Assembly: GCA_001247695.2 (NCBI GenBank) | Contig: LGRX02035082.1 | Coordinates: forward strand, 1 to 64,000 | From: Cymbomonas tetramitiformis | Lineage: Eukaryota; Chlorophyta; Pyramimonadophyceae; Pyramimonadales; Pyramimonadaceae | Reading direction: 5' to 3' | Length of the DNA: 64,000 nt | Part shown: positions 15,459-57,329 of the stretch, one piece after another | Layout: the number at the start of each line of letters is the position of its first letter | How positions within the stretch are numbered: the first letter of the stretch is position 1 | The notes under the pieces: generated by a model | What the model was told of the DNA's origin: nothing | What the model saw: the letters and a program-made list of their open reading frames with translations, nothing else | The model's database searches: none | Translations under genes and position numbers: made by a program

Positions 15459-15501
15459 AGGTAATTTGCTTCGGTCCTAAAACATAAAGAGCAGAGGTTA
15501 T
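15459..15501 (+). repeat. 43-bp dispersed repeat, inverted copy at 59222-59264
   Basis: gtaaggtaatttgcttcggt...cagaggt is identical, in reverse complement, to 59222-59264, 44 kb away. A third, diverged copy lies near 59610 (same orientation as 59222). The copies at 59222 and 59610 are followed by ccttac repeats. Confidence 0.85.
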
Positions 15502-15537
15502 TAGGTTATCGTTATGTCACGGCATCGGCATGTCATC

Positions 15538-15816
15538 TCATGTCAATGGCAATGTCAATGTGAATGTGAATGTGAATGTGAATGTCGATGTCAATGTGAA
15601 TGTGAATGTCAATGTCAATGTGAATGTGAATGTCAATGTTAATGTCGATGTCAATGTCAATGTCAATGTTAATGTCAATGTCAATGTCAATGTCAATGTC
15701 AATGTCAATGTCAATGTCAATGTCAATGTCAATGTCAATGTCAATGTCAATGTCAATGTCAATGTCAATGTCAATGTCAATGTCAATGTCAATGTCAATG
15801 TCAATGTTAATGTCAT
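15538..15816 (+). repeat. (tgtcaa)n hexamer microsatellite, about 46 units
   Basis: Pure tgtcaa from about 15650 and a tgtgaa/tgtcga variant mix before that. Long open frames on both strands (Val-Asn, Asp-Ile, Leu-Thr repeats) are by-products of the 6-bp period. Confidence 0.97.
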
Positions 15817-15870
15817 ATGTCACGAGAGCGAGAGCGAGCCGGGCATTTTCGATTTTGGAACCGAAATGGT

Positions 15871-17124
15871 CAGCGTTCGACGATCGCTATTTTTGAATTG
15901 TGAACACGAACATGAACTGAGCGTTCATGAACATGGCCTAAATGAACATTAACTGAACATCGGCTTCCGTTCGTGAACATGAACCCGAACTGTTCACGAA
16001 CATGTTCATGAACGTGACACTATTTTTGGAATTCCCCCCATATGTAGTACATTTGATAAGTGCCATAAGTCATTTCATGCAAACGCGTCACGACAATATA
16101 TGAAGATAGTGGCATCTTCCTATCTAGTTGCATCACAAAGGCACACTTGATCATTCCAGTCACTCTCAGGCACCGATGTTCTACTAGCATATTATTGTGC
16201 ACAATCTCAACGACTAAACCTATATAGCTATACGATTTAGTAATTTGCCGATCATATAGATGAAGATATCAAGTTACGGTAGGATAAGTGGATAACTACT
16301 TGCTTCACGTAGACACGTGAGTACATAAAGACATAATCCTTCAATACACCGCCTAACTAAGTTACCAACCGGGTATTCAACTACTCTTGAGCAATTTCAT
16401 CTTCTTCCATCTCTCCATTGATGACAGGTTGGTTGAATTGTTGCTGGCTCAAGTGCCCAAAGCTACTTCGCATATACGACTCCATGAATCCGCGGTTCAT
16501 GCCGCGCAATAAAACGATGATCTCGATCTCGGCATCAGAAAGCGGTAAGGTGTTCCCATCAACCAAAACTTGATTAGCACAAGATAGCACGCGCTCACAA
16601 ATGCTCTCCGCCATCAGCGCACCAATTTGGAAGGGGGAGGAAGACGCCATCAACGGCAACCAACCATTTTCCTTCCGCTCTGTCACAACGGCATTCTCGG
16701 ATTGATCTTCTTCAACCTCAGCCACAACAACTTGCAAACCACGTCCCTCCGCGGATACAACAATCTCATCCGACCCGCTTGCCATCATATAAAATAATAT
16801 CGATATACGCCTGTGACCTTTTGAACAGCCGCAAAGAGTAAAGCAGCGAGGCTTCTTGGAAAATCACATGTAGAGAGCTAGGCTTCTACGCTTCTTGGAT
16901 CAGACCACTTTTCCGGCTGATCGCGAACATGTTCGCGCGATGTTCGCGATCAAATCTGAACAAAACTTTTGGTGCTTTTTGATCGCTAATCCACGGTTGT
17001 GAACTGAACACCGAACGTGAACCGAGCATAACTGAACATGAATATGATCATGCATGTTCATGAACTGATCTGAGACATGTTGATGTTCACGATCAAATGA
17101 GAAATTGGCGATCGTCGAACGCTG
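15871..17124. mobile_element. hAT-superfamily transposon, 1254 bp, 8-bp TSD
   Basis: Begins cagcgttcgacgatcgc and ends with its exact reverse complement, giving 17-bp TIRs of the hAT CAGNG type. The 8 bp on each side are identical (gaaatggt at 15863-15870 and 17125-17132), the hAT target-duplication length. The subterminal 150-200 bp at both ends are packed with gaacat / gttcatgaac words, typical of hAT subterminal repeats. Inside is a minus-strand remnant of the transposase C-terminus (separate entry). The element is internally deleted and non-autonomous. Confidence 0.93.
16381..16788 (-). pseudogene. hAT transposase C-terminal dimerisation-domain remnant
   Basis: 135-codon open frame. Its second half (AESICERVLSCANQVL, then LPLSDAEIEIIVLLRGMNR) follows the hAT C-terminal pattern SxxERVFSxAG...L...E..V.L..N..F. 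The first half is acidic and unrecognised. Full hAT transposases are about 600-800 residues, and the BED finger and catalytic core are absent, so it cannot act as a transposase. It could still be a dimerising fragment. Position inside intact TIRs supports the call. Confidence 0.65.
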
Positions 17125-20500: not shown

Positions 20501-22254
20501 GTTTGCTGATTTTTGCTTATTCATCTTTGGTCTCAGTTCTCTTGCTAAAATGGTGACTCCACACGGTTTGATAATTTGCTTACACAGCAGCCGCTCACGA
20601 CAAGAAGAGAGGTCACAACAGGTCAAGGGCAGCAAGTGCCTCGTGACACTTTGCAAAGGCACGGCGTTTGTGCAGTGGTCCAACATATTTAAATGAAAAG
20701 AGCTTGCCAAGCAACAAACATACTTGGATACACTCTCCAAAATGACCGCGTGTCTTACCATGTGGTGTGAGATTCTTTTTGTCATGGATGTTCAGCAGTG
20801 CATTTAATGAGCAGATAGGAAAATAACGCGTGTATAATCTAGAAAGGTACGCTAATCCAATTGTATTTTAATTACTCCCGAAAGACATTTCTGTCGTAAA
20901 TGTGATTTGAATTGTCTCCAGAATATAAGCAACAGTCTCTCTGTAGAGCGAACCTCCATGATTTATATGAAATGAGCTTCAATCATTATCGTTATTGGTT
21001 ACAACCGATGTCATTGATGCCAAAAGTCACCCCAGATCATCATTCACTGCCTCCAATATTGTGCGAGCATGCTGCAAGAATGAAAACCAAAGACCTTTCT
21101 ATGAAGTACACTAACATTGCATTATCAAAGTGCTTAGGGAAAGAGACTGACACGCAAACACCGTGTCCATCATAGGTGTCCATGGATCCTAGCATGAGCG
21201 CAGCATGAAACCGCATTCACCATTGCCATGCCTCCTCCCTCACACCTTCTCTCGTCCAAGGTGCAGCAAACCGACCAGGGACATCTGCTTCAAAAATCGA
21301 CAGCAGTGGAAATGTTTGTGCGATATAGCCCTCCTGCCGCACGTAAATATGACCACTTCCAAGACTCGGATATGCTGAGGTTCATCTGGGTTTTTAGAGT
21401 GTATGATTTTTATATATTTACACGAATCGTTCCACTCCAGAATATGGGACACAACCTGAAACAGGCATATAAACGGAACATAATCTTTGCGACAAGTATT
21501 TTTTGAATAATGATACGCGAGTGACGTCAGATTATATAAATCACATATGAAACGAATTCTTTGAATCAAAATACAGAAATATTGTCATCCACGAGGTTAA
21601 CGTTATCTGTGAAGTATCATAAATCATTACTGAACGCGCATTCCTGAACCGAAGGGTGCGTACCGCGACCTTCCGGCTATATTTTCATTTTTCAGTTTCG
21701 ACTGTCTTGAAACGAGAGTAATATATAATTCATTGATTTGTCATTCGCGTTGCACGGCCGTTATCCTACGCCAATCGTACGACGGGCCGTAAATGGGCAA
21801 ATCATGCGAATCGTCGCGAATATATAAGTGTCGTATAGATTCCGAGGATTGATGTCGTTCGCTTCACGTATAGTTATTACGGCCCCAGCGATCGTCTAGA
21901 TTGTTCGGGGTGTGAGACTTTACAAGCTCACTCCGGTGTAAGTAGACACTCACAGGAAATGCAGGGAAAGCATTTCGGATGATACTAGATCACAGGGATA
22001 TTGTCGGATATCGGTATTGTCGGTTAAAATACTTCGGAGTTACTAAGCACAAGCTGGTGCAGATTGTAACTAATTAAAAAACTGGCATGAGAGCTTGCTC
22101 AGCTCTTTAAGTAGTAACATGTCGACTCGAATTCCCTCGGCTCACCTCGGATTCGATAGGCATATGTCAACCTGATCTGCTGTGGGTGCTGATGTACAAA
22201 AGTCACATCAGATGTTCAAAAGTCACATTCTGTCAGTCACCCTCGTCATACCCC
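20501..22254. other. No gene seen; may include the 3' LTR of the minus-strand gypsy element
   Basis: AT-rich with no recognisable protein. On the minus strand a G-run at 22247-22255 looks like a polypurine tract, which would put a 3' LTR immediately to its left. I could not find the matching 5' LTR in the window. Confidence 0.35.
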
Positions 22255-22539
22255 CCCCCTAGGCGCGCCTACGTCCTCGCTAGGCTGTCCTGCCCTTATG
22301 TACATTGTCTGGAGGTTAGCATGCACGTGTGACAAGGTTTGAGCTGCTAAGCTCTCGGTTCTCGGGTCCATGCCCCCCAGTTCTCGGGTCTGGGTCCCCC
22401 TCTGCGGTTCTCGGGTCCGTGCCCCCCAGTTCTTGGGTCTGGGTCCCCTTCTGTATACTGGGTTTTCCCGAAAGCTCCGCACCGTCTCATGCATGCTGCC
22501 AACGCTCAGACGGTTTGGTAACCCTGGTACTCCCCCAGA

Positions 22540-23602
22540 TCACAGGTCTTTTGCGGCCTTTGCGCCCCAAGGCTGACTGGCCTCGGTATCTTGAATCTCA
22601 GACTCGTCCGTCCGCGCTGTCAGCGTCGATATCAGGTCCATCACTGCGAGCGCGTTCTCCTCCTTCATGCGCTCGCCAAGCTTCAGCTCACAAAACAGGT
22701 GATGAAGCAACGCACGAGGTATTGCGTACACAGCCTGAGCTGAACCCATACCGCGGGTGTTGGCTGCTGAGATCCCCTCCTGAGCGGTGTTCTCATGCTT
22801 CCCCAGAGTTGCTCGTGCAGGCCAGGGAGTAGTGTGGTTGCACTGCAATAAAGGCACTGAAGGCGCTGCGTTGGTCCATATATGGGTAGGTTTCATATAC
22901 GGCGTCCCATACTTGCAATAAGTAGTTAGCAGCGGCTCTGGCAGGCCCTTCATTACAGCACGCGTGGGCACGCCCCTCAGCACATCGCCCGCAGGGTTCT
23001 CTATAAAGTAATACGCAGGGTCATAGAACTCAATGATCTCCCTGATACGCCGCACGCGCCTGTCCGCCAGCTTTAGATCTGGTGCCCCCCGCGTCTTTGC
23101 CTTGCTGTACTCCTTACGGGGAGGACTGGCCCAGATGACATCGAAATGGTGCCGCGGGCGGGTAGAGCTTGTAGTTCCAGTGTAAGATATCCTCCGTGCA
23201 CGTGGCTTGCCACTTCGGGAGGATGTCTACTGTTACCACCTCGCAGTCCCTAAACTGGCGCTGGAACTGCTGCTCCACTGAACCAGAGCCGCAGAACAAC
23301 ACCAGAATCCTCACTGGATGCTGCACTCTCTCGAGATGGGGCTGGTGGTAAGCCCGGCTCTGGCTACTGCTGTAGACTGTCGGGGTTGGAGGTCCTATTG
23401 CCATCAACTGCGCTCTCTGTTCCTCCTGACCCTTATGTGTCTCCCTTCGCCTCTTCTCTGGAGCTCTCCTTTGCCTCTCCTCGTCTGCTTCAAAGACTCT
23501 GAGTGGGTTCAGCCTGCCTCCTTTGCCCTCGAGATCCTCTCTGGTCCTCCACTGACTGTGACTGTGACACTGTGCGGTAGTCCCTTCTACTTCGTCAGCC
23601 AC
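22540..23602 (-). pseudogene. Cytosine-C5 DNA methyltransferase domain fused to gypsy chromodomain
   Basis: SAM-binding motif I is ILVLFCGSGSVEQQF followed by VVTVDILPKW and a TEDILHW segment. Motif IV reads VIWASPPRKEYS, then DLKLADRR, motif VI FIENP, and a TTYCKYG...TRIWTN-like end (here THIWTN). The family normally has PPC; the catalytic Cys codon is replaced by Arg (CGT, one transition from TGT). A frameshift near 23140 separates motif I from motif IV. Upstream the frame continues into a charged linker and the tail of the chromodomain, so the enzyme was part of the pol polyprotein. It would have methylated element or host DNA when intact. The present copy is dead. Confidence 0.8.
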
Positions 23603-23638
23603 TCCTGCACTGTACCTCCAGCCTGATGCATATTACCC

Positions 23639-24272
23639 ACCGCTTAAGGTGGCTTAAGCCACCTTAACTTAAAGGGCTCATGGGGGTTTCCTCGGCGGTG
23701 CTTTCAAAATTTGGAGACCCACATCGTCAAGATCTCGAGCTGCTCTTTCTGCAGTGTCTTATCAAAAGTTTGATCTGAGTTCATCTTGACCCTCAAAATC
23801 TCGGTTGAAGTAGGGTGGGTATCTCCCAATAATCCTTAATATGGCTTAAGCCACCTTAAGCTAATTAGCTCACGGGGGGTTCCTCGAAGGCGCTTTCAAA
23901 ATTTGGAGACCCATGTTGTCAAGATCTTGAGCTGCTCTTTCTGCAGTGTCTTACCAAGAGTTTGATCCAAGGTCATCTTGACCCTCAAAATCTCGGTTGA
24001 AGTAGCATGGGTATGCAAGAACCGAAAAAAAAATCACTCACATTTTACCAAATGTTGCACCCTCTTGGATACTTCCCAAAATTGCTCACCGGGAACTTGG
24101 GCTCGCCTAATAGTGCACATCATAGTGTCTTATAGAAGACATTGTCACCGTCATTTTGAGGTAGCTAAAAGATTTTAGCTTCCGGTACCGATAGCTCCCG
24201 TAATAATTAAAAACGTTATTAAGGTGGCTTAAGCCACCCTAAATCGCTGTTAGGGTGGCTTACGCCACCCGG
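23639..24272. mobile_element. TIR-like element splitting the chromodomain, internal tandem duplication
   Basis: Both ends carry ggtggcttaagccacc palindromes (23648-23663; 24222 and, diverged, 24254). Inside, a module of about 150-190 bp is present twice (about 23690-23830 and 23880-24010). The module includes gagctgctctttctgcagtg and ends ctcaaaatctcggttgaagt. The same module occurs inverted in element 38999-39657. Chromodomain sequence lies on both sides. Exact ends and target duplication are unresolved. Confidence 0.65.
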
Positions 24273-24646
24273 AGGGTGATAGCCACTTACCACCCAGCTT
24301 TCTGAACCGTGTGCTGATGATGCGCTCTACCTCGCGTTCCTTCTGACCCTCGACCATTGCAGGTGGCGGTGCCGTCCCCTCCTGCCTGCCTACAAAGTGT
24401 TTGGCTCCAGACTGCACAGGGGTAAGCCGATCAGCTGTAAACACATTGTGCACCTTCCAGTGAACTGGCAATTCTAATCTGTACGCAGCTGGGGCTCCTC
24501 GATCCTGCTCTGGCAGCTCCTGCTGCCTGTCACTGTACAATCATTCTACTACGCGTTGGGGGCCGTGCCTGAGCTTACGCAGCTTTGGCTTCAACCCCCC
24601 GATCACCCGGCAGTGTCAGGTGCTGGCCGTCCACCCACACCTCACC
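24273..24646 (-). pseudogene. Gypsy integrase C-terminal (SH3-like) region and start of chromodomain
   Basis: Reading leftwards: GEVWVDGQHLTLPGDR, KLRKLRHGPQRVVE, RLELPVHWKVHNVFTADRL, then VEGQKEREVERII. These are the conserved chromovirus segments after the integrase core. A stop interrupts it near 24540. The chromodomain continues beyond the insertion at 23638 as EWLTK-stop-KGLP, where a Trp is expected at the stop. Confidence 0.8.
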
Positions 24647-26634
24647 CTTTTCTGAGCCACTGTCAAAAGACGCACATGGTAATGGCATGCGGAACTTTGG
24701 CGAAATTTGAAATGGCAAGACGGGTTGTACGATTTATAAGATCTGCGTAAGATTGACGGCAGATGCAGGGGCGGAACTTTGGCGAAATTCAGGGCGAGGA
24801 GGATAGGAACGTCAGATCTTGCCTAGTCACGATGCCGAGTTAATCGTGGTGTCGAGGGACTTCGTCATGGTTTCACAAACACGAGTTCCCTGAATTTCTG
24901 CAATGGTTCGGATCAGGTCACTTTGTCATTTTTGGGACGAAAGATTTGCTTCGCGTTTCAAAGATTCACCTCTCGCAGTCCAAACGCTGAACGTCATAGT
25001 CAGCAGTGCCGTTCGTAAGTTATTAAGTATGGAAATCTAGGTTATCGGCTGCCCGCCCCAACTTTGTTGCGCTACTGCAGGCACACTCGCTTGTGATTTT
25101 AATCACATTACCTGAAGTGCATTTTTTTTCAACGTTCCTAACGAATATACATGTATTCACAAGGCGAATACCTTTCTTTTGAGCTCTTGATCGACCCCAT
25201 CCGCAACCGCATCAGCTTCGTTTGCAGTCGCCACTGCAAGCTAAGCCGATGCGGTTCAATATAGGGTCGACTAATTCACGGCAGCCGAGGGGTTTTCGTG
25301 CGTTCTAGCGCAAGAAACTTACGGGATATATTCGTATCAATATTATGAATATACCCTGTAAGTTTCAGGTCATACCTTGAAGTATGCTTCAAACAGTCGC
25401 ATATTGGCATGAGGCGTTTTGGGTTCGGGTTTTGACGATTTACCCGAAACTGCCTTGCAGAATTGGAGTTGTCGTGCACCCCAACTCACGAATCCTGACA
25501 GATATATTCATAACAATATTATGAATATATCCCGTCAGTTTCAGGTCATACCTTGAAGCATACTTCAAACAGTCGCATATTGGCATGCGGCGTTTTGGGT
25601 TTGGGTTTTGATTTACCCAAACCCAAAACTGCCTTGCAGAATTGGAGTTGTCGTGCACTCCAACTCACGAAACCTGGCGGATATATTCATAACAATATTA
25701 TGAATATATCCTGGAAGTTTCAGGTCATACCTTGGAGCATACTTCAAACAGTCGCATATTGGCATGAGGCGTTTTGGGTTTTGATTTACCCAAACCCAAA
25801 ACTGCCTTGCAGAATTGGAGTTGTCGTGCACTCCAACTCGCGAAACCTGGCAGATATATTCATAACAATATTATGAATATATCCTGGAAGTTTCAGGGCC
25901 TGCCGTCAAGTATGCTTCAAACAGTCGCATCTTGACAAGAGGCGTTTTGGGTTTAGATTTATCCTCTTGTCAAGATGTGACCGTTTCGAGTGTACTCGAC
26001 GACATGCCCTGAAACTTACGGGATATATTCATAATATTGATACGAATATATCCCGTAAGTTTCTTGCGCTAAACCGCACGAAAACCCCTGAGCTGCAATG
26101 AATTAGTCGACCCTATATATCTTGAACCGCATCGACTTAGCTTGCAGTCGCGACTGCAAACGAAGCTGATGCGGTTGCGGATGGGGTCGATCAAGAGCTC
26201 AAAAGAAAGGTATTCGCCTTGTGAGTACATGTATATTCGTTACGAACGTTGAAAGAAATTGCACTTCATGTAATGTGATTAAAATCACAAGCGGGTGTGC
26301 CTGCAGTAGCGCAACAAAGTATCTAGGTTATCAGCGGGCAGCCGATAACCTAGATTTCCATACTTAATAAGTAACAAACGGCACTCCCCTCGACTGCAAT
26401 ATTTTACCGCTGCGATATTCCCTCTGTTCTTCAGAGCAATTCCTCCCCGTTTCGTGACGTGGCAGTCGTCGTCTGCGAACTGCACTGTGTACACAGCGAA
26501 GAAACTTGGATTAAATCTGTGAAATCTCCACCGTGGAAAGTTTTTAATCGTCGGTTATCAGCGACGCGCCATTTGGCAGAATCCAAATAAAATGTCGTTT
26601 TTTTGACAGTGGCCCAATAAAGGGTGCTGATCGT
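24647..26634. mobile_element. 2.0-kb insertion in gypsy integrase, TSD tcacc, containing a foldback structure
   Basis: Flanked by tcacc on both sides (24642-24646 and 26635-26639). Removing it rejoins integrase codons (AAANKGE to VWVDGQH). Near the ends, gccactgtcaaaa (24655) and its complement ttttgacagtggc (26601) form a terminal inverted repeat. No transposase frame inside. It contains the foldback element 25005-26385, which may be a second, nested insertion or its core. Confidence 0.7.
25005..26385. repeat. Foldback element: about 365-bp inverted arms around a 178-bp tandem array
   Basis: The left arm 25005-25370 and right arm 26010-26385 are reverse complements with few mismatches: agtgccgtt, attaagtatggaaatctagg, cgcttgtgattttaatcaca, ctcttgatcgacccca and gaaacttacgggatatattc all occur in both. 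Between them three to four units of about 167-179 bp repeat at about 25374, 25552, 25731 and 25898 (cttcaaacagtcgcatattg, ttgcagaattggagttgtcg), each with its own attatgaatatatcc palindrome. It could fold into a very large hairpin. No open frame of note. Confidence 0.9.
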
Positions 26635-26889
26635 TCACCTTTGTTTGCTGCAGCCTGTATGTGTCGCGCGTCGAACGGCTCCATCATGCGTTGCTGGACC
26701 ATCTGCAGGTTTACCCGCGCTGCCTGTAATTGCCGCGCAAACTGCTTTGCCAGCTCGTGCGCTGTCCCTCTCTTGTCCGCTGCCACTCGTCCACCTTTCC
26801 TTCGCCTCGATCCGCCTTCCAAAGCTGCGTCCATGAAGAAGTCCAGCTGCGTTGCTGGAGCGTGACTGTTCGTACTACACCAGCTCAAG
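26635..26889 (-). pseudogene. Gypsy integrase segment between two insertions
   Basis: Contains AKQFARQLQAARVNLQMVQQ, the helical segment that follows the integrase core in chromoviruses, ending AAANKGE at the tcacc target site. On the right the frame meets element 26890-27936. Confidence 0.8.
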
Positions 26890-27936
26890 TGGCTACTATC
26901 CCGAGATCCTTGTGGGAGGACCTAGAACGCTCTAGATCCTCCCACAAGGATCACTTTTTCAATAATTTATTTAGGCGCCCCACGAGCTTTCTACAAGTCA
27001 ACACCAAGGAATACTTTCCACATGGGACATATACTAAGTAGTATGGTGCGTGGTTTGACGAGAATCCATCATATATACTCCTAGCTAATGCATTTATAGC
27101 ATGCCCCAACCAAATTTTGAACTGCTACGCCTTTTAAAGCTTCAAAAGCGGGGTGTATCTTCCATAATTTTTTGCCAATCGTATATGGATCATTTGCCAC
27201 CATAGACATAATATATCTCAAGGTATGTATGTATATTAATTATGTTTGGGTCAAAATACGACTTGGATAATGTATATTGGACACATCACACGAACGCGGT
27301 CACATGGGTAAGATATACACATTCCTTAAGTATGGGGACGATTTCGCATTTTGGGCGTGAGTCTTGGTCCATTTTAAGCTTTAAGGCTAGATCTTTGCCT
27401 TGGTGAGCACTTCAGTACTTTAATATGACTTCAAAGTCTCCTTGGGATTTTTTGGGGATTTTTTGAACGGTTAGAACTACCGCTAGAGGTTCTAGAATAC
27501 GATTTTCAGACCCTGATAATGATGGAAATATTGAATTTCGACGGTACTACACCATAGCATGCGCATATGCGGCGATTAATCCGGCTAGTATGATATTAAA
27601 GGGCTTACAAAATTAGTTTTGGTCATATTCTCGAGGGTTAACAACATACGCACCAACCCGAGCTCGTGTAGCAAGGCCTAGAGTTGTCGGTACCCTAGAT
27701 CCTTGTGGTAGGATCTAGCATTTTGATTAAAATTCTGTGAAAGCACCCACCCAAACCACGCTAAGATTAAAGGTCAAACCATCGACATTTCAAGCAAAGA
27801 AATGTTATAGATAATTCAAAAGGTTCATAAATATTGCCCCAAAGCATATGCCGGGCCACTATATACGACATACGAGGTCGCCATACCCATTTGCGCTAGA
27901 TTCTTGTGGGAGGATCTGGATTAAGGATAGTAGCCA
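26890..27936. mobile_element. TIR element A (1047 bp), TGGCTACT family
   Basis: Ends tggctactatcc / ggatagtagcca. Flanks caag (26886-26889) and caaa (27937-27940), a 4-bp duplication with one change. The left end has an inverted pair gatccttgtgggagga ... tcctcccacaaggatc; the right end repeats ttcttgtgggaggat. It sits in the integrase after the GFSPF segment. No transposase. Confidence 0.88.
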
Positions 27937-28233
27937 CAAAGGGGGAGAATCCAGTTGCTGCTGACGTGGTGGAGTCATTGATCGCGTACTCCACAGGTGC
28001 CACCCAGAGGTCCCAGTCCTTCTGGTTCTCAGTGACGTAGCAGCACAACATGCGCTCCACAGTGTGATTGCTGCGTTCCGCTTGACCGTCGTTCTGGGGA
28101 TGATAGGGAGTAGTGCTGGTCACCTTGACGCCCATCAGCCGCATGAACTACGTAGTTATACTGTATACTGAGTCATAGCATCGCGAAAGCGAGGGTCACG
28201 GTAGCACACTATCTTCATGGGGGCTCCGTGTAA
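27937..28233 (-). pseudogene. Gypsy integrase core, second Asp and catalytic Glu part
   Basis: VCYRDPRFRDAMTQ supplies the second catalytic Asp region and PYHPQNDGQAERSN the catalytic Glu. LWVAPVEYAINDS and TGFSPF follow. One stop and one frameshift lie near 28150. Confidence 0.88.
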
Positions 28234-29306
28234 TGGCTACTGCCCGACAGTCCTTGTGGGAGGACCGAAACGGCGTTGGGTCCTCCCACAAGGACCGGTG
28301 TTGCGGGAATATTTTTAGCCGTCCTCTTGACGGTCTTAGTGCCTACCCTTCGGTTTTTAGTACACTTAGGACCTACACTGAGTGTCCATATGCGCCATCA
28401 ACCGTATATCGTCATAAAATGACTATATCCAATGCATTTGTAGCATGTACCCTATCATTTCTGAGTTGCGACTTTTGGAGGACGTTCAAAAACATGCCAT
28501 GCCATTCAAATATTTTAATCCAATACAATTCCAGGTCAAACAAGCCGCCCAAGTACAAAAATTTATCCTAACATCATACCCAATCATACTTGCAAGATTA
28601 TACATGTTGGCGACCTCGTATTGGGTGTATATACGCACTCAAATCGACCTTACACCTGTAAAAAACATTTTTGATCCAAGATTTTCAAATGTTTTTTTTT
28701 CGTTACTACGGATACTATGAATGCCAAATAGTGTTCGGATATGATAGATGTATGATGTGCCACGTCGCATTTTTCATGTAAACATGTTTATCGATTTTAG
28801 AATACTTAAGCATGTCAATATGTGCAGTAGTCTACTCGGAACATTGCTTTGGAATTCGGCGAGAGCAGATTTTTGGATGGCCGATTTTGATGAAATCTAA
28901 TTTTTTCGTGGGTGCATGACATTGTGAGGGATATATACCGCAGTATTGTGGATTCCGAAGATGTTGTACATTGTAGAGGGCACGAATAGGTCATGTTGAA
29001 GTATTTTTTAAGTGCAGTGGGCACTAGGAAGGCCACTTAGTGAGTGTAGGTGGCTTGGGAACTTCCGGTCCTTGTGGGAGGACCGGCCTTTTTATTTAAT
29101 TTCGAGCGGTTTCACCCCCACTTTTCAATAACGTAAACCACATCGCTACACCGAGTATTACACCCAACACACGTTTTTAGATAATTATTGGACACCTAAA
29201 TATGACCCCAAAGCACTCATATACCAACTATATCGAAAAAACGCGGCATATATCCCAAATTCACTTCGGTCCTTGTGGGAGGACCGGACCTTCGGGTAGT
29301 AGCCAG
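28234..29306. mobile_element. TIR element B (1073 bp), TGGCTACT family, TSD gtaa
   Basis: Ends tggctactgcccg / cgggtagtagcca; perfect gtaa duplication (28230-28233, 29307-29310). The left end contains gtccttgtgggaggacc and its complement ggtcctcccacaaggacc; the right end has ggtccttgtgggaggacc. An internal frame at 28445-28720 (MYPIISELRLLEDVQKH) is related to a minus-strand frame in element C (MYPIIFHLQLLEDVKKH), so the two share internal sequence in opposite orientation. Confidence 0.93.
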
Positions 29307-29790
29307 TAACCGCCATACCGCGTCCATGAACAGTTTGACCACCACCTCTGCAGAGCTGTCGGTGTACGTCATTGGCACCACATGTACCATCTTGCTCAGC
29401 TTGCAAGTGAGGTAGCAAAGGCGTTTACTCCTCGCTGAGTCATTGGGAGACCAGTGACGAAATCAATGTTCACCACTTCCCAGAGCCTGCTCGACACTCT
29501 ATGAGGTTCGGAGGTTGCAACAGTCTCATGGGGTACCCCTGCCGCGGCTGCGTCTGCTGGCAAGTCACGCACGTCTTTACCCACTCCGCTACATCCAGAT
29601 CCATCCGCGGCCACCAGAAGCGTCTTCGGACACGATCCAGCGTCTTATCCCTGCCGGTGTGGCCTGCGGACGGTGCCTCGTGTGCCTCTCTCAACACCAG
29701 CTCCCGTAGGGGCGAGTCCGGGGCCAGTACCACATGATAGCGCCCTTCAGCTACTCTCCAGATGATGTCGCTCACCAGCCGGAAGTGTTC
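29307..29790 (-). pseudogene. Gypsy integrase HHCC zinc domain and first Asp
   Basis: HEAPSAGHTG ... RFWWPRM ... CVTCQQ is the H-H-C-C zinc-binding domain. WEVVNIDFVTGLPM carries the first catalytic Asp. At least two frameshifts. Element B interrupts it on the left. Confidence 0.9.
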
Positions 29791-31345
29791 TGTGCTGTGC
29801 GATGGTGCTGGGTGCTTAACAACTCCTGTTTCAGGGTTCTGAGATACTCGCTGCGCATGTGTTCTGCTCTCAGAGCTCGCAAGAACACCCCTGGCTCCAC
29901 TGTCCCCGTCTTATCTCTGACCTTCGCTGCTGCTCCTGAGAGTGTGACTGCTGGTTGCGCAGAGGGTCTCTCGCGTGTGACCAGCTTGCTGGGTGGCTTC
30001 TGCGGTCTGGCTATCACCACTAGCACTGGCCATGGAACTGGTAGCTCCTGCAGATAGAGCCGAGCGATGACCCCTCTCTTCCCCAGGTGAGGTAAACAGC
30101 TGGTTGGGCTCACGGCGTGCTCGTTCGCTCTTGGAATGATCTCAACGATTTCCAGGCCGAAATCGCGTAGTAACGGTCGCCAATTCACAAGTCTGGCAAC
30201 AAGAACAACGAAGGCACGGGTCCTGCTTCGCCTCGGATGCATAATGTCTCAGGATGCCATCGATGCTCACGTAGTTACTAGGGTCCGAACTCTGAAAAGG
30301 GGGCATTGCACCAGACGATACGGCCCCTCCACTGCTCGTTCAGGCAGTCAGTCCAGAAGGTGCTCACCTGTCTGTTCTGACCCATAGAGTCACACCACGC
30401 GTCCACCTGAAATGGTCCACCCATGTCAGCACCCGAGAGTACTTGCTCTGCAGCCTTGCGAACTCTGAAGAAATCAGCTTCCAATCCTGCTTGTCCACCA
30501 GCGGTTCTCCCGGTCGGTCGGATTCTCGGGTTTGATTGCTGCCGCTCTGCTGCTGCTGCCGCTGGTCGCTGCTCCGCTGCTGTTGCTGCTGGCTGCTGCT
30601 CCGCTACCTGCGTTCGCTGTGCTGCTGGCTGCCGTTGTTGCTTTTGTGCTGCTACTGCGGGCGATTGTGCTGGGAGTGTCTCTGACAGGGCAACTTCCGC
30701 GTCCAAAGGAGACACATGGTCATCACCTGTTGCTGGCTGCTCTGCTGCTACCGCTCGTTGCGCTCTCGTAGTCACTCCTGCGAAAGCAGAGACTGCTGTC
30801 ATCGTGGCCACTGTGTCCATGGCATCGCGCCACAGGTCGGGAGTCTCTGCCCACCACGGTGCATTGAGCTGCGCCAGCTTCCCTGTCACTACTGTCGGGC
30901 TCAACGGTGGGTGTTCCTCGTCCTCCTTCTCTGACGAGCTGAACCCCGCATCCAATGGAGAGATGGGGTCCTCCTTCTCCACCTCCTTCTCCTTTACCGC
31001 GTCATTCACCTCAGCTTCGGCCTTCGGTACTTCCGCTGGTTTCCCCTTGGCACCTGCAGCTCGCATCCCTTCTTCAGCTGTCACTGGCTGGTCGGTACTC
31101 AGGTCCACGTACCCTGCCTCCTTGAGCCCTTCTCTCGCAGATGTCTGTACGTAGTCTGGTCTGCGAGACGCGGCATCCGGCACCACCAGTGTACGCCCTG
31201 GCATATGCTCCATAGCGTGCACACCCACCTCCACCAGATCCTCATACCGCCTAGCTTGTCTTCGGCTCAGCTCTCGACCTGGCGCAAAGAGCCACTTCAA
31301 CGGGGCGTGGTCTCCCATGAGTCGGAACTCTGTGAAGATAATAAG
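29791..31345 (-). pseudogene. Gypsy RNase H C-terminus, linker and Dam-like methyltransferase domain
   Basis: The right end gives GDHAPLKWLFAPGRELSRRQ ... VVPDAASRRPDY, the end of RNase H. A long Glu/Ala/Gln-rich linker follows (31150-30430). Then VDAWCDSMGQN, TFWTDCLNEQWRGRIVWCNA and PFSEF, and in shifted frames ILRHYASEAKQDP, LFLLPD, NWRPLLRDFGLEIVEIIPRA. This resembles the Dam-like (N6-adenine type) domain found in some algal gypsy and DIRS elements, whose catalytic loop is NPPF; here it reads NAPF. Two or more frameshifts. The domain assignment rests on motif memory. Confidence 0.7.
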
Positions 31346-32414
31346 TGGCTACTGCCCAAAATCACGGTCCTGTCACAAGGACCGAAGTGATTTGGGACTA
31401 TCCGCCGCGTTTTTTCGATATAGTTGATATTTGAGTGTTTTGACATCATATTTGGGTGTCCAAGAATTTATTACGAACCTCTTTTGGGTGCTATACTCGA
31501 TATGGGCATGTGCTTGAGAGGAATGAAACGCGGGGGTAGTACCGACGAAAATTAAATAAAAATGCCGGTCCTTTCACAAGGACCGGAGTGCCCGAAGCCC
31601 CGTACACCTACTAGATGGCATCCAAATGCATCTAGCAATTAAACATATCATGTTTATGACCCAATAGTGCCCTCTAATATGTACCACCTCATAGATAGCC
31701 ATGATACTTCCGCAGTCATGGCTCACAATAGCATGCACTCACGGAATTTCGGATCATATGCATATTAGGACCTAAAAAATATGTCAACCCATAATTTTTA
31801 GAGTACATGCAATGCACAATACTGCCAGTTATGGTGATGTTAATAGCTCAAAAAATCAATTGATATGTATATATGAACACTACAATGTGCTAGCAGCCAT
31901 ACGTGAATAATGCAGATGCTATTCGACAAAATTCTTCAAGCCTTCAAGAAAGTTTTTGCTGCATAAAATAGTGGATATACGGGTGGATATACGAGCACTC
32001 GATATATGAGAGTGGATATACGACCCAATATACACCGAGAACGTGCATAATATTTTGCGCATGATTGGATATGATGTTAGGATACATCTTGGAAGGTTGG
32101 CGGGTTTGTGAGACCTAGAATTCAATTGGATAAACATTATTAAAGGCATGGTGTGTTTTTTAACGTCCTCCAAAAGTTGCAAGTGAAAAATGATCGGGTA
32201 CATGATTCAAATGCACTGGATATACTCATTTCATGACGATATACTGTCAATAGCGCGTGAAGGCACATAGTATAGGTCCATTGGAAACTAACATTCCGGG
32301 TGGGGTGCACTCGGAACGCCAAGAGGACGGCTTAAAAAATCCCGAAAAGTCGGTCCTTGTGACAGGACCGGACGCGATTCCAGTCCTGTCACACGGATCG
32401 TTGGGCAGTAGCCA
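31346..32414. mobile_element. TIR element C (1069 bp), TGGCTACT family, no matching TSD
   Basis: Ends tggctactgccc / gggcagtagcca. Flanks are taag on the left and ccta on the right, unlike its relatives. The left flank is minus-strand RNase H, while the right flank is the gag tail of a different, plus-strand gypsy copy. Stem motifs: ggtcctgtcacaaggacc at left; ggtccttgtgacaggacc at right. Confidence 0.88.
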
Positions 32415-32991
32415 CCTACGCTTGCGTAGCCGACAGCGCGGATCGCCAGCGGAGGAGTCGCTCGCGGTCATCGACTCCGCCCTATCCTACCCCTGGGCTA
32501 CAGGGGATGCGGGTGGAAATTCTGTGGGGGTGCCCTCGGCTGCTGTCTCAGCTACGGGGACCATTCCTGGCTCTGGGGGGGACATTCCGGGGATGCCAGA
32601 CGCATGGTGCAGCCTGTACAGGGTGCACCAGTATCGGGAGCGGCAAGCAGCAGTGACGCCAGCGGAGGTGAGGCAGGACTTGTTCGGCGAACAACAGCAC
32701 GAACGACACAAGTCTCGCGGGGCCGCCACCGAGCTTGGTGCTGATGTCCCCGTCGCTGCAGTGGACGATGAACCACTGGTGCGTGACTCGTCACCGGAAG
32801 TCGATGACATTGACCTGACCCAGCAGCTGGCCAGGGCAAATGATCCGCAGCAGGTAGACCCTGCAGTTTCGGATGCAGCAGACGACGACGACAGTATGAC
32901 CCAGTGCCTGGCCAAAAATAAGGACACTGACACCCTCGCCGCACTGAACTCCCACCACCTGCAGCAGGATACGGGGAGTGATGAGGACTAG
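32415..32991 (+). pseudogene. Gypsy gag C-terminal / linker part
   Basis: Open frame running in from element C to a TAG at 32989-32991. Hydrophilic, acidic, with SSPEVDDIDLTQQLA and VTPAEVRQDLFGEQQ. No CCHC knuckle seen. The stop lies 12 bp before the ATG of the protease-RT frame, in the same reading frame, so it may be a read-through site or a mutation. Confidence 0.6.
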
Positions 32992-33003
32992 CCGGAAGAG
33001 GAC

Positions 33004-34560
33004 ATGCCCAGCCACCCGCTGGTGGATGACGATGACAGTGAGGACGAGGGCGATGAAAACTTGGAGGCGGGCGTCGGCCGTTGTAAGCGCATCATGTGTG
33101 GCGGTGGCGTGCTGTGGACCGCCCACCTCGCTGCGGCTCACAATCAGGATGGCGCGTTGCTTCTGGTGTTCTACGCGTACCTGCGTGGCAAGCGGGTGAA
33201 GTTGCTTATGGACTCGGGGGCCTCAGATAATTTCGTCTCTGACGAGTGTGCGAAACGTTGTGGTCTACGCGTGCAGAATGGTCGGTGGATGAAGGTGACG
33301 TTAGCGGACGGGTCGGTTAAGACCACTGGCGCTATCGCGTACTCGAAATTCACGGCCCGCACCGCGGCGGGCTCCACGTACAATGAGTCGGCCATGGCAA
33401 CGCATGTGTTGCCGCTCGGGATTCAGGTGGACGTGGTGCTGGGGGGGAAGTGGCTGCGAAGCCTCTCCCCCATCGTACTTGATTACTCTGGTCATGGCTC
33501 TGTGTCCTTCGCACGGAGGACGAAAGGAGGGGGAAAAGAGCTGGTGACCATAGCGGGCTGCAACCCGGGCAAGAGTGCTGGTGGGCGCGGCGGTGACTGC
33601 GCGGGTCTCATCGACGAGGTCTTTTTGACTGCGGTGCAGCTGCGGAAGCACCTCTTGTACGCAGAGACGAAGAGGCTTGCGGGTGACACCTCGTGTCAAC
33701 CGGCGTGGCTCATGATGGCGCGCAGGGACGGCGGGGAGCACGAGTCAGCCTACGCGGCCACTGCGATCGGTGATCATCCCGACTCGGATCTCATCGCGGC
33801 CGATGCTGAGGCCGTTGACGCGGCGTGTCTCTCGGTTGAGACTGATGTGGCCGACGCGGCGGAGACTCACCCGGTGCGACGCCCCGAGCAGCCCACAGCC
33901 AGTGCCCAGCCGGCGAAGCTGGAGCCGCCGGACACAGAGGGCACGGCTAAGGACATTCCGCAGGATACGAAGGATGCTAAGGTGTCGCCCCACTTGAGGG
34001 CGAAGTTTCAAGCACTCTTTGAGGAGTTCTCCGAGGAGTTACGTGACGCCCTCCCCGACATCTCCAAACTACGGCGGTCACTGGAGGACGAGGCCAGGGT
34101 CACCCTGAAGGCGGACAAGGAAGGAGGACCTCCGTTTCGTCGCCCCTACCGTATGTCCGTAGAGGAGCTTCGACAGCTGCGCGAACGTATCAAGCAACTG
34201 GTGGAGAAGGGCTACATCAGACCCTCGGCCAGCCCCTACGCAGCGCCATGCCTCATGGTACCCAAACCAGGCCAGCCTAACAACCTGCGCCTGGTGGTGG
34301 ATTACTGCCAGCTGAACTCTCAGACGGTGAGGGATCAGTATCCACTGCCGGACATCCAGCTGATGTTCGATGAGATGCAGGGTGCCACTCATTCCTCCTC
34401 CTTTGACGCCGTGGATGGGTTCTGGCAAGTTCCCATGGCCGAGGAGGATGTGGAAAAGACGGCTTTCACCACTCAGATGGGCTCGTATGAGTGGTTGGTG
34501 ATGCCTCAAGGACTACAGAATTCCCGTCACAATACCAGCGAAGGATGCAGAGAGCGCTAG
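33004..34560 (+). CDS. pol: Gypsy protease and N-terminal reverse transcriptase
   Basis: 518 codons. Protease active site LLMDSGASDNFVS near residues 70-82. RT starts about residue 380: RRPYRMSVEELRQLRERIKQ, GYIRPSASPYAAPCLMVPK, LRLVVDYCQLN, then FDAVDGFWQVPMAEEDVEKT and MPQGLQNS. A one-base deletion in the C-run at about 34523 shifts the frame just before the SQYQRRM helix, and the true RT continues in the frame that opens at 34491. Not functional as a single protein here. Confidence 0.92.
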   Translation: MPSHPLVDDDDSEDEGDENLEAGVGRCKRIMCGGGVLWTAHLAAAHNQDGALLLVFYAYLRGKRVKLLMDSGASDNFVSDECAKRCGLRVQNGRWMKVTLADGSVKTTGAIAYSKFTARTAAGSTYNESAMATHVLPLGIQVDVVLGGKWLRSLSPIVLDYSGHGSVSFARRTKGGGKELVTIAGCNPGKSAGGRGGDCAGLIDEVFLTAVQLRKHLLYAETKRLAGDTSCQPAWLMMARRDGGEHESAYAATAIGDHPDSDLIAADAEAVDAACLSVETDVADAAETHPVRRPEQPTASAQPAKLEPPDTEGTAKDIPQDTKDAKVSPHLRAKFQALFEEFSEELRDALPDISKLRRSLEDEARVTLKADKEGGPPFRRPYRMSVEELRQLRERIKQLVEKGYIRPSASPYAAPCLMVPKPGQPNNLRLVVDYCQLNSQTVRDQYPLPDIQLMFDEMQGATHSSSFDAVDGFWQVPMAEEDVEKTAFTTQMGSYEWLVMPQGLQNSRHNTSEGCRER

Positions 34561-35535
34561 AACACATCCCCTTCTTACGAATCTTCATCGACGATGTGGT
34601 TTTGTTCACTGTGAAGGGAGGAGTTCAGGAGCACTATGGGAACGTGCGCACCTTCCTGCAAACCTGTCGGGAGAAATGTGTATACCTGAAGGCGTCCAAG
34701 GCGCAGATGCTGAAGGAGTCCTTGAAGTTCCTTGGTCACACCCTGTCTAGCGAGGGCTGCAGACCCCAGCATGACAAGGTGGCAGCGGTGCGGGACTGGC
34801 CGGCGCTGGAGAACGCGACCCACGTTCGTCAATTCCTGGGCTTGGCTGGGTATTACCGACGTTTCATCCACTGCTTCTCCGACATCGCACAACCCCTCAC
34901 CATGCTCACCAAGAACGATGTGGAGTGGAAGTGGGGTCCGGAACAGCAATGGGCCTTCGAGGAGCTGAAGGCTGCCCTGGTGGATGCTCCTGTCCTGGCC
35001 CTGCCGAACGTTAAAACGGCGGCTGATGGATCGGCCCCGTTTTTGGTGCAAACCGACGCCAGTGGAGTAGCGCTGGGGGGAGTTCTGATGCAGGACTGTG
35101 GTGAAGGCCTCAAGGTGATCGCCTACGAGAGCCGAGAATTTTCTGCAGCAGAGCAGAATTACCACACGGGAGAGAGGGAACTCTGTGGACTCCATAACTG
35201 TACCACGGTAGCTTGGCGGCACTACCTGATCTTCACTGCTTTCAAGCTGCAAGGAGACCATCGACCTCTGGAATGGCTGATGGGTGGAGCCAGGGAGGGA
35301 GCTGAGCCGACGCCAGACACGGTGGTACATGGACCTCGTGGAGGTGGGCGTTCCTCGCATGGAGTATGTGAAGGGAGCGCTGCTGCTGGTACCTGACGCA
35401 CTATCGCGAAGGCCAGATTACGCAGCCAAGACCCCGCGGGACGGCGGGAGGGACTACACGAAGCTGGCATTTTGGACGCCAAATCTGACCTCCCGAAAGA
35501 CCCACTCTCGGTGCTGGATGCATCTGACCTCTTAA
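34530..35535 (+). pseudogene. pol: Gypsy RT palm/thumb and RNase H
   Basis: Continues RT with the catalytic FIDDVVLF (YIDD-type), FLGHTLSSEG and FLGLAGYYRRFI, then RNase H with QTDASGVALGGVL and YESREFSAAEQNYHTGEREL. A second frameshift near 35280 moves the RNase H end (PGRELSRRQ ... LVPDALSRRPDY) into the frame 35284-35535. Confidence 0.92.
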
Positions 35536-35639
35536 TCGAGGGTCCAGCCTTAGGCACGTTACCCCGACTTGCCGAGGTGGACAGCTGGTTGGATGCGGTG
35601 GACACCCTACAGCTGGCAGAGCTGCCCATAGAGTCCCAC

Positions 35640-43400: not shown

Positions 43401-43579
43401 CGGTGAGTGCCACGGCCCATTCTTATGGTTGAGTAGAGGTCGGTGCACGTGCACCCGCTATGTACCTTTTGAAGGTGCACGTGTACCCCACGAGCACGTT
43501 CTCATTCGTGCTGGCCAAGTGCGCGTGCACCCGGTGTGTACCAAACCTTTGTTACACTAAACTCACGCGATGTGCACAG

Positions 43580-43863
43580 AGCCGGTAAGTTATGCTTTAC
43601 GCACGAACGAGGATATTCGCTACCACGCCAAAAAGCACGCGAAGTTGTCGGACAGTGTTTCTTTACGAAGGCGCATATCCAAAGTTTCATGTCGGCGTGT
43701 GGGGTGAAGCTTCCGGCCGAATTCTCGCGATTGCCCTATTGGGACGAATTCATGGACTATCTTATCGACCTTATGCAACTCATCAACAACCTATGCGAGC
43801 ATGTTTGCGACTCTCTGATGGGTGCCGATTTCGACGACAAAGTCCGCCAATGGGCAAAGCAAT
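43580..43863 (+). pseudogene. TNP2 transposase, following exon, running into satellite
   Basis: GKLCFTHERGYSLPRQKAR, then LPYWDEFMDYLIDLMQLINN and LCEHVCDSLMG, equivalent to the LPYW...LRHNLDVMHIEKNVCD block. The frame continues (DDKVRQWAKQ) straight into the first satellite unit. The rest of the transposase is not present. Confidence 0.8.
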
Positions 43864-45171
43864 CGCATTGCACGGGCAACGCCTGCACGGCTTTCATTGT
43901 GTACGTACGGGGGATGATAGGCATGTGCACAACTGCAGGGGGTGGGGGCAGCTGGCCTCGGATGGTTCCTATAGCGCGCGAACTTGCGGAGTTCTCGCGT
44001 TTTAGGAATTATTCAAGGGCAGCCACCACACATCTGCGAGGGCGCTGCACGGGCAAAGCTTGCACGGATTTCATTGTGTACGCTCGGGGGATGATAGGCA
44101 TGTGCACAACTGCAGGGGGTGGGGGCAGCTAGCCCCGGTATTGTATGGTTCCTATATCTTGCGAACTTGCGGAGTTCTCGCGTTTTAGGAACTATTCAAG
44201 GGCAGCCATCACACACCTGCGAGGGCACTGCACGGGCAAAGCATGCACGGCTTTCATTGTGTACGATCGTGTAATGATAGGCATGTGCACAACTGCAGGG
44301 GGTGGGGGCAGCTGGCCTCGGATGGTTCCTATAGCGCGCGAACTTGCGGAGTTCTCGCGTTTTAGGAACTATTCAAGGGCAGCCATCACACACCTGCGAG
44401 GGCACTGCACGGGCAAAGCATGCACGGCTTTCATTGTGTACGATCGTGTAATGATAGGCATGTGCACAACTGCAGGGGGTGGGGCAGCCGGCCTCGGATG
44501 GTTCCTATAGCGCGCGAACTTGCGGAGTTCTCGCGTTTTAGGAACTACTCAAGGGCAGCCATCACACACCTGCGAGGGCACTGCACGGGCAAAGCATGCA
44601 CGGCTTTCATTGTGTACGATCGTGTAATGATAGGCATATGCACAACTGCAGGGGGTGGGGGCAGCTGGCCTCGGATGGTTCCTATAGCGCGCGAACTTGC
44701 GGAGTTCTCGCGTTTTAGGAACTATTCAAGGGCAGCCATCACACACCTGCGAGGGCGCCGCACGGGCAAAGCATGCACGGCTTTCATTGTGTACGATCGT
44801 GTAATGATAGGCATGTGCACAACTGCAGGGGGTGGGGGCAGCTGGCCTCGGATGGTTCCTATAGCGCGCGAACTTGCGGAGTTCTCGCGTTTTAGGGATT
44901 ATTCAAGGGCAACCACCACACACCTGCGAGGGCGCTGCACGGGCAAAGCATGCACGGATTTCATTGTGTACGCTCGGGGGATGATAGGCATTTGCACAAC
45001 TGCAGGGGGTGGGGGCAGCTGGCCTCGGTATTGTATGGTTCCTATATCGCGCGAACTTGCGGAGTTCTCGTGTTTTAGGAACTATTCAAGGGCAGCCATC
45101 ACACACCTGCGAGGGCACTGCACGGGCAAAGCATGCACGGCTTTCATTGTGTACGTGTAATGATAGGCATG
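43864..45171 (+). repeat. 178-bp satellite array, left segment (about 7 units)
   Basis: Units of 177-183 bp: catgtgcacaactgcagggg, ggcagctggcctcgg, tatatcgcgcgaacttgcgg, agttctcgcgttttagga, attcaagggcagcca, cacacacctgcgagggc, ctgcacgggcaaagc, acggctttcattgtgtacg. Units of 177 bp keep one frame open, producing long repetitive open frames with no other evidence of coding. Element G splits the array after 45171. Confidence 0.97.
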
Positions 45172-46251
45172 TGTCCACTACCCGGTCTTGGGTACATCAC
45201 GATGTACCCAAGCCACTCTTTGTTCCGCACGCCATGGCGAGTTCGAAACATTTCAAGTGTCCATATGGTCAATATAGGTTGTCAATAACACACCAATCTT
45301 GGGTATGAACCATATGATTGGCGGTATTCATGTCATAGACATGGGTTTTTGGGGGCGGTTGCCTAGGCGATTTCCCAGAAAAGGCGAAATTCTTAAGTTC
45401 CAAATTCTTGGGTACATCGCTTGGGTACATCGATTTGTATGCATGGTTATGCACATGAAAATTGCATATTTGGTCGATGTTTCATTAGGGCATTAACATA
45501 GACCCCTCAAAGCACTTATTTTATTATGGGATGGTACCATACCTCACAAGTTATCATACTTCATCACCAAGACTTCTCATCATAAAACAGTGTCAGATTT
45601 TAGATTTCGCCTAAAAAAATGCGCGCGGACATATGTGATGACTCCCACCCATCGATCTATTAAACGAAGACATATTTATCTGTGCAATGCATGTTATTGC
45701 AAATACGATTGCCAAAGAATGAGCTGACAAATATTTTTGGTAATAATAATCGATATCACAGGTCACCTTCAACCGCTCGCGCCGACTCGTCCCCACACCC
45801 GATACGGTACCTCGTGCCGTGCGGCAAGTAAGCAGTTAAGCTTGGGGATCTAGGGTACGCCGAACATGACGAGAATAAATTAATTAAGATATTGTGGTGT
45901 AACAAACCTTAAAAAGTATTCCACTTTGTGAAGAATCCCCCCCCCTAAGATATGCGAGACTGTGGAAAAGGCGAGTCGCAACAAACCGTGGTAAAAAACA
46001 ATTAGAAAAATGTTTTTGGGAGCCAAGTTGCGATTTGCATGGGTTTGAATGCACTTGACATGATATATATCCTACCAGGATGCTTGTGACGGCATATTCC
46101 CGTGTTCATGATGATGTTGGCTAGCTATATTGATGATTCGTAACGACAAACCGTTAAATTTATGCCCCCATACCATCGATTTAGCTTGGGTACATCCCTA
46201 TGTACCCAGACCCTCTTGGGTACATCCCCATGTACCACCGGGTAGTGGACA
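45172..46251. mobile_element. TIR element G (1080 bp) in the satellite, TSD catg
   Basis: Ends tgtccactacccgg / ccgggtagtggaca, a variant of the TGGCTACT ends. Perfect catg duplication (45168-45171, 46252-46255) taken from the satellite word ggcatgtgcac. Stem motif cttgggtacatcacgatgta + cccaag at left; cttgggtacatc twice at right. No transposase. Confidence 0.94.
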
Positions 46252-54722: not shown

Positions 54723-54990
54723 TGGAATAGAAAAGTGACCTTCCTGGAATAGAAATTTGAATTCTGAATTTCAATTTACAGATCTGCCTCAAAAATTCTT
54801 CCGGCTTTCAAGAATGATATTTCCCAAAATTTCCCCCACCTCCTTCTGAAAATATAAAAGTTTCTTCAATGATGTCATCAGTCGACACAATAATTATATT
54901 GTCACTTCGATCTCCGAAAGTCATGACGTGTCCGACCTCGTCCATGTGCGGCCGAAAAAGATATCAAAACACAACGCTGGCTCGTACCCG

Positions 54991-55074
54991 CTCAGACCTG
55001 TATCTCACGCAGCTGGACAGTGACTTACGGGGGCCCGTAAGTCACTGTCCAGCTGCGTGAGATACAGGTCTGAG
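54991..55074. repeat. Perfect 41-bp inverted repeat with 2-bp spacer
   Basis: ctcagacctgtatctcacgc... runs to 55031 and is followed after gg by its exact complement (55034-55074). Confidence 0.97.
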
Positions 55075-55307
55075 AAATAAATACGAAGCACCAAAACTTA
55101 GCATACTGATTAAGAGGTGCGTTAGGAACAACATATGTTTTGCGCGCGCGAGATCCGTGCACAACCTGGGGTCTGGGACGCCGCGCATGGAAGGGGGTCA
55201 TTGGGCACGCATCGAGCCAACCGCTCGACATACGCATCGTATAAACGCATCTTGCATATCACAAACCTTCCACGCATATCATATATGCATAAGGAACATA
55301 TTTTGAG

Positions 55308-57320: not shown

Positions 57321-57329
57321 TGAATGGTT

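Follow-up and report, generated by a model that had tools for sequence, protein, structure and literature searches.

The first 64,000 nt of contig LGRX02035082.1 from the green alga Cymbomonas tetramitiformis (assembly GCA_001247695.2), referred to here as the window, carry on the minus strand a decayed pol of a Ty3/gypsy chromovirus. A sequence-only reading of this DNA had proposed that, once four insertions are subtracted, RNase H, a Dam-like domain, integrase, chromodomain and a cytosine-C5 methyltransferase (C5) lie there in one direction. We observed the same order in tblastn comparisons with the intact pol P0036: the matches are collinear with P0036 residues 961-2235, and the series is interrupted solely at 4 insertions (28234-29306, 26868-27937, 24644-26660 and 23626-24285). 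Downstream of the C5 domain follow a tandem repeat, a polypurine tract and a 3' long terminal repeat (LTR). The parts of the element are as follows.

31342-22576, minus strand: decayed Ty3/gypsy chromovirus pol (tblastn with intact pols)
30755..31342, minus: end of RNase H and start of a variable pol linker (tblastn with P0036 and P0039); the copy lacks its 5' part upstream of this point
30003..30516, minus: Dam-like N6-adenine methyltransferase domain (Pfam PF05869, and tblastn to intact Dam regions; lower bound by eye)
29542..29718, minus: integrase zinc-binding domain H2C2 (Pfam PF17921, E=1.2e-24)
27938..29509, minus: integrase core, in pieces 29307-29509, 28168-28233 and 27938-28147 (tblastn with P0036)
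24286..26867, minus: integrase C-terminal region, in pieces 26661-26867 and 24286-24643 (tblastn; SH3_Tf2-1 match below cut-off)
23524..24333, minus: chromodomain, interrupted by the 660-bp insertion 23626-24285 and by a frame change (tblastn with P0035 and P0036; bounds by hand)
23318..23523, minus: charged linker from chromodomain to methyltransferase (tblastn)
22582..23317, minus: C5 cytosine methyltransferase domain (tblastn)
22356..22453, minus: pair of 49-bp tandem repeats within the 3' untranslated region, where intact copies have two 61-bp units
22251..22262, minus: polypurine tract (from the sequence)
21902..22248, minus: 3' LTR of 347 bp, TG...CCCCGAACA, with a terminus nearly the same as that of the intact family's LTR, CCCCCGAACA

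The window copy is dead, since its frames are broken at several places, the Dam motif NPP has become NAP (30299-30322) and motif IV of the C5 domain reads SPPR for SPPC (within 23110-23132); the ENP motif is retained (22991-23007). The frame of the Dam-like domain changes near 30278. The sequence-only reading also had the chromodomain frame leading into the methyltransferase through the charged linker, and this is so in the intact copies described below, where the frame is continuous, but not in the window copy, where it changes near 23566-23569 and again, within the C5 domain, at 23157-23159. It should be noted that the PF05869 match in the window (30290-30418, E=0.0029) scores 17.7 bits against a cut-off of 28.1, and that a Pfam scan of the window pieces gave no match to a C5 model. 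Proof of the architecture therefore rests on the relatives of this copy.

Intact pols with two methyltransferase domains

A protein database search with the C5 piece, set for long proteins, returned 12 proteins, 6 of which carry the Pfam Dam label (P0035, P0036, P0039, P0041, P0044 and P0045); the chromodomain label is present in 5 of these 6. The exception, P0044, belongs to a lineage with a PHD finger and showed no chromodomain match in the Pfam scan. P0038, P0042 and P0046 were excluded from the family, being mixed gene models or a phage-like protein. In the Cymbomonas gene models P0038 and P0042, chromodomain or C5 pieces are fused with other sequence, either a PHD protein or domains of ABC-transporter and EF-hand type; these may be mis-joined models or may contain captured exons.

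The Pfam searches that the sequence-only reading had called for gave matches on the intact pols. By Pfam positions, the order protease, reverse transcriptase (RT), RNase H, integrase was found in P0035, P0041, P0044 and P0050. The chromodomain profile PF00385 exceeded its cut-off, C-terminal to the integrase, in P0035 (E=1e-6), P0041 and P0050, and PF05869 exceeded its 28.1-bit cut-off in P0041, P0044 and P0050 and lay just below it in P0035 (27.2 bits), the match spanning only about profile positions 7-80 of 169. The Dam catalytic motif is [DN]PP[YFW]; NPP[FY] is present in 10 of 11 Dam-bearing database pols. The remaining one, the metagenomic P0043, reads NPRI at the Dam motif but retains its C5 domain, a natural loss of one writer motif. 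A PHD finger occurs in the metagenomic P0044, P0047 and P0048, and in P0044 it lies between Dam and integrase (PF00628, E=1e-10). The pair of Dam and C5 domains is found also in metagenomic pols with 56-61% RT identity, and intact pols with both methyltransferases come from 3 database sources (JGI, ENA and NCBI). DIRS elements are defined by a tyrosine recombinase and the lack of a DDE integrase; an H2C2 integrase domain is present in the window and in the intact pols, and rve in the intact pols, which places the family outside DIRS. In a fold search with a 1,167-aa model of P0045 (predicted local distance difference test, pLDDT, 57.9), the 50 matches listed were all integrases or intasomes, with the Ty3 integrase as best PDB match.

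The genome of Cymbomonas contains many copies, and the counts given here are lower bounds, as only the best candidates were scored. The nearest named proteins are Cymbomonas gene models of the CYMTET_ series, among them P0001 (CYMTET_18116), which recurs at 100% identity on contig C6603 of the assembly. With P0001 as query, 13 of the best 141 (of 7,989 candidates) lay in open frames of 2,500 aa or more; with the window C5 piece, 25 of the best 150 (of 7,741) lay in frames of 2,400 aa or more. Intact paralogues with the proposed domain order were thus found: all 15 long copies examined (L051-L062 and L072-L074) are single intronless open frames of 2,488-2,577 aa that hold Dam NPP[FY] and the C5 domain together, and the database pols agree. 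Across 47 loci picked for similarity or open frame, most of them located via the C5 domain, motif I to ENP was in one frame in 45, and SPPC was present in 45/45. A pattern match placed the chromodomain upstream in frame in 38 of 45 loci, the linker measuring 77 aa at 37 of these loci and 76 aa at the other; of the 7 that the pattern missed, L021, L025, L030 and L044 have short frames, and in L059, L075 and L079 the difference is probably one of letters alone.

A pol ending after the chromodomain, with the methyltransferase at an unrelated locus, was not seen among these copies, most of which were found through the C5 domain. Queries independent of that domain were also used. The Dam region of P0044 as lone query returned 5 proteins including P0044, all with a C5 domain, complete in P0044, P0047, P0048 and P0050 and ending after motif I in P0049; all 4 pols other than P0044 thus have the domain or its start. 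Both of the 2 chromovirus Dam loci examined in the genome carry a C5 domain. With the P0035 chromodomain region as genome query, 32 of the best 150 (of 6,224 candidates) lay in frames of 2,400 aa or more, and C5 status was settled for 24 of these 32, which agree with a scored C5 match in contig and in length of frame. The sequences support the prediction of one chromovirus pol that unites a Dam-like domain with a C5 methyltransferase domain at its C-terminus.

Two elements, on contigs C17726 and C12634, were traced to both ends. They have 602-bp LTRs of the form TG..CA, with 1 and 2 mismatches within the pairs, a polypurine tract, 5-bp target duplications (GCCCG and GATTT, respectively) and a primer-binding site that begins TGGTATCAGCG, two bases past the LTR, and that we take to resemble an initiator tRNA-Met site. 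The C17726 element is ~14.0 kb long, and its gag frame of 1,658 aa overlaps the pol frame of 2,563 aa, which lies in the -1 frame. Relative to the copy on C10056, for which no 5' LTR was found within the stretch examined, 10 of 11 other loci are 98.5-98.9% identical and L060 is 95.9% identical.

Selection, descent and kinship of the two domains

Both methyltransferase domains are under purifying selection and are constrained like the core enzymes. Ratios of nonsynonymous to synonymous change (dN/dS) were taken within families only, as the comparison of family A with family B is saturated for Dam and C5. In family A (L060 versus 11 other copies), dN/dS was 0.01 for Dam and 0.09 for C5, with 0.02-0.03 for protease, RT, RNase H and integrase core; the linker before Dam gave 0.45, and those after Dam and after the chromodomain 0.00. 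The 3 copies of family B, with few changes, gave 0.09 for Dam, 0.24 for C5 and 0.05-0.17 for the same core enzymes; here the linker upstream of Dam reached 1.01, and the other two showed either 0.00 or no changes at all. Among the three linkers compared, looseness is confined to the one that precedes Dam. Synonymous divergence (dS) between L060 (G000:C12536) and the other family-A copies is uneven along pol, from 0.04 to 0.33, so that L060 is probably a recombinant between subfamilies and its ratios are approximate.

Both methyltransferase domains share their descent with the polymerase: in trees of ten pols, drawn within the family only and leaving out P0049, whose model stops after motif I, the arrangement for C5 is identical to that for RT plus integrase. 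The Dam tree of the ten pols likewise agrees closely with that of RT plus integrase but groups P0050 with P0039/P0041 (support 0.82). P0035 shares 56% RT identity with P0044 and 51% with P0043, and these low values indicate that C5, and in most lineages Dam, has long been associated with pol.

The C5 domain has the motifs F.GTGS, SPPC and EN- and the AdoMet-methyltransferase fold of the C5 class. Its profile matched 18 PDB sequences at E of 0.01 or less, 2 of them DNMT2 and 16 DNMT1, none DNMT3, with a DNMT2 sequence as the best match (E=2.9e-6); in the fold comparison, DNMT3 was the best match. It is 28-35% identical to small phage C5 methyltransferases (phrog_757; for example that of Bacillus phage BM15), which have the same compact domain but are phage genes, outside any pol. 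In the C5 tree, 14 of 20 viral-contig loci were entered, the other 6 having failed the motif pattern. By its sequence, the domain looks like the small phage-type enzymes and unlike the Dnmt3 of charophyte and dinoflagellate elements, which may point to capture from a phage-type source rather than from a host Dnmt3. The sequence-only reading had named captured C5 methyltransferases in charophytes and dinoflagellates as precedents; such elements exist, but theirs are Dnmt3 domains.

The Dam-like domain has its counterpart in DIRS-type elements of the same genome (L076-L078), in which it likewise directly follows RNase H and is 34-41% identical to the chromovirus Dam; the DIRS Dam tree does not include L077, which the motif pattern failed to catch. 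Where the chromovirus has its integrase, these elements have what we take, from its appearance, to be a tyrosine-recombinase-like frame, and no C5 domain was found within about 3 kb downstream.

Precedents are known in retrotransposons for each module separately. Dam domains have been described in DIRS elements, and sequences that code for C5 enzymes in both Ty3/gypsy and DIRS elements (PMC6338049); DNMT3 in retrotransposons is given elsewhere as Copia and DIRS (PMC12344493). Among the closest systems is KnitGypsy-Dnmt3 of Klebsormidium nitens, a Gypsy-type LTR retrotransposon whose pol includes a C5 methyltransferase that is under purifying selection (de Mendoza et al. 2018, PMC5890265). That enzyme is a Dnmt3 domain, the repeats are DIRS-type according to the figure legend, and the available text mentions neither Dam nor chromodomain; the Cymbomonas chromovirus combines plain LTRs of 602 bp with a chromodomain, a Dam-like domain and a C5 domain of phage type. 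In dinoflagellates, two further retrotransposons contain a C5 methyltransferase, SymbioDIRS-Dnmt3 and SymbioLINE-Dnmt; these are DIRS (with a tyrosine recombinase) or LINE elements, not chromoviruses, and have Dnmt3 or orphan DNMTs (PMC5890265). From a brown alga, Gypsy elements of chromodomain and Tudor type have been described, as has a Sola element with a ParB-methyltransferase gene (PMC12477816). The latter, Sola1, resembles the present case as an algal transposon with its own DNA methyltransferase, predicted to act as an N4-cytosine or N6-adenine enzyme; it differs in being a DNA transposon whose methyltransferase is a separate accessory gene and not a pol domain, and C5 is not mentioned in the accessible part of the report (PMC12477816). 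A Chlamyvir-related chromovirus pol has been reported from Cymbomonas itself; Chlamyvir-like elements likewise combine a Ty3/gypsy pol with a chromodomain, and 'methyl' occurs 0 times in the main text of that report (PMC10675990). Among the matches listed in our literature search, titles and abstract openings held no report of Dam plus C5 in one element, Repbase reports, theses and most subscription journals lying outside its coverage.

Insertions and neighbouring sequences

The insertions in and beside the pol copy, and the other features of the window, are as follows.

28234..29306: insertion 1, terminal inverted repeat (TIR) element (TGGCTACTgCCC...GGGTAGTAGCCA), with GTAA on both flanks (by eye)
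26868..27937: insertion 2, TIR element of the same kind as insertion 1
24644..26660: insertion 3, with nested long inverted repeats at 25005-26385
23626..24285: insertion 4, within the chromodomain
31343..32420 (about): insertion 5, TIR element at the truncated upstream end of the pol copy, without matching flanking bases
32548-35633 (about), plus strand: second, related pol
1610-3876, plus strand: frames presumably from a DEAH-box RNA helicase gene, to judge from their motifs
15480-15875: tandem repeats that advance in steps of 12 and 18 bp
43473-51075: frames on both strands in which the same few peptides recur, in a long array
52144-57777, minus strand: pieces that we take, from RT and integrase motifs, to resemble a Ty1/copia pol

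The second pol stands head to head with the minus-strand pol, insertion 5 lying between them. It contains the end of gag, protease, RT and RNase H, is closest to P0049/P0050 among those tried, and gave no further match beyond about 35633. The lack of matching flanks at insertion 5, unlike insertion 1, suggests a rearrangement between two copies or an assembly join.

Possible roles of the two methyltransferases

We read the window copy as the remnant of a chromovirus lineage that is mobile now or was so very recently, and whose double-methyltransferase Pol would methylate the element's own complementary DNA (cDNA); we hold this whole reading to be somewhat better than an even chance. In the Pol order protease, RT, RNase H, Dam, integrase, chromodomain, C5 methyltransferase, the Dam-like domain lies beside RNase H and before the integrase, and the C5 domain lies on the integrase's chromodomain tail. 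After reverse transcription, the two would methylate the new cDNA, in the particle or in the pre-integration complex. The element would then enter the genome with marks on adenine, cytosine or both, which the host would take for its own, and the chromodomain would steer insertion. By analogy with SymbioDIRS-Dnmt3 of dinoflagellates, whose domains are reported to be active on CG in yeast (PMC5890265), methylation may precede integration, and the element may chemically mark its own DNA copies.

Several observations qualify this reading. In a polarised CpG-decay test on the window copy, transitions were at 20/127 (0.157) CpG versus 55/717 (0.077) CpH positions, and transversions, at 8/127 (0.063) versus 17/717 (0.024), were raised as much or more, so that there was no CpG-specific excess of transitions. 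P0043 keeps C5 after the loss of its Dam NPP, and Dam activity is thus not needed everywhere. In family A, the two linkers that follow Dam and the chromodomain show as much conservation as the domains themselves, so that low dN/dS alone is no proof of catalysis. Also, KnitGypsy-Dnmt3 showed no activity in yeast, a result that its authors regard as inconclusive (PMC5890265).

The methyltransferases might instead be tethered by integrase and chromodomain and methylate not the cDNA but the chromatin at the insertion site and around it, which would thereby become silent or protected. The position of C5 C-terminal to the chromodomain, on a linker of near-constant length (76-77 aa at the 38 loci measured), would suit such host-side action, as would the PHD finger, another histone reader, of the metagenomic relatives; the placement of the Dam-like domain before the integrase and beside RNase H, as in the tyrosine-recombinase DIRS elements, is a better fit to action on cDNA, and we regard the host-side explanation as unlikely, if the strongest of the alternatives. 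A little less probable still is that one or both domains act on RNA, or bind nucleic acid without methylating DNA in vivo. DNMT2, the best PDB sequence match of the C5 profile, is a tRNA methyltransferase, and the Dam motif of P0043 is degenerate; yet the catalytic motifs are kept nearly throughout (SPPC at every one of the 45 loci, NPP[FY] in all Dam-bearing database pols but one), and the C5 fold also matches DNA enzymes strongly.

Protection of host or element against DNA viruses has been put forward, as a hypothesis, for transposon-borne methylases (PMC6338049), and the host genome has an integrated giant virus and many polinton-like viruses (PMC10675990). The fusion of both domains into pol suggests use in the element's own cycle, and we consider an antiviral role improbable here. 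The fragmented window copy, and models such as P0042 in which the C5 piece is attached to unrelated genes with ABC-transporter domains, might raise the suspicion that the association is artificial, produced by nested insertions or by models that merge separate loci. That explanation is refuted by the intronless genomic frames that hold both domains and by the intact pols from three database sources, and we give it practically no credence.

In a fuller picture, an old algal retrotransposon lineage would mark its DNA with N6-methyladenine as well as 5-methylcytosine by means of one polyprotein that also reads chromatin, through its chromodomain or, in relatives, a PHD finger; the C5 writer would have come from a phage-type enzyme, and the adenine writer would be shared with DIRS. 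We consider this fuller picture possible, at somewhat less than an even chance. With two putative writers and a reader in one pol, under selection and shared at 56-61% RT identity, the question of what methyltransferases do for transposons becomes testable: a nanopore assembly of the host allows 5-methylcytosine and N6-methyladenine to be called on young versus old copies, and the Dam-only DIRS elements of the same genome provide an internal comparison.

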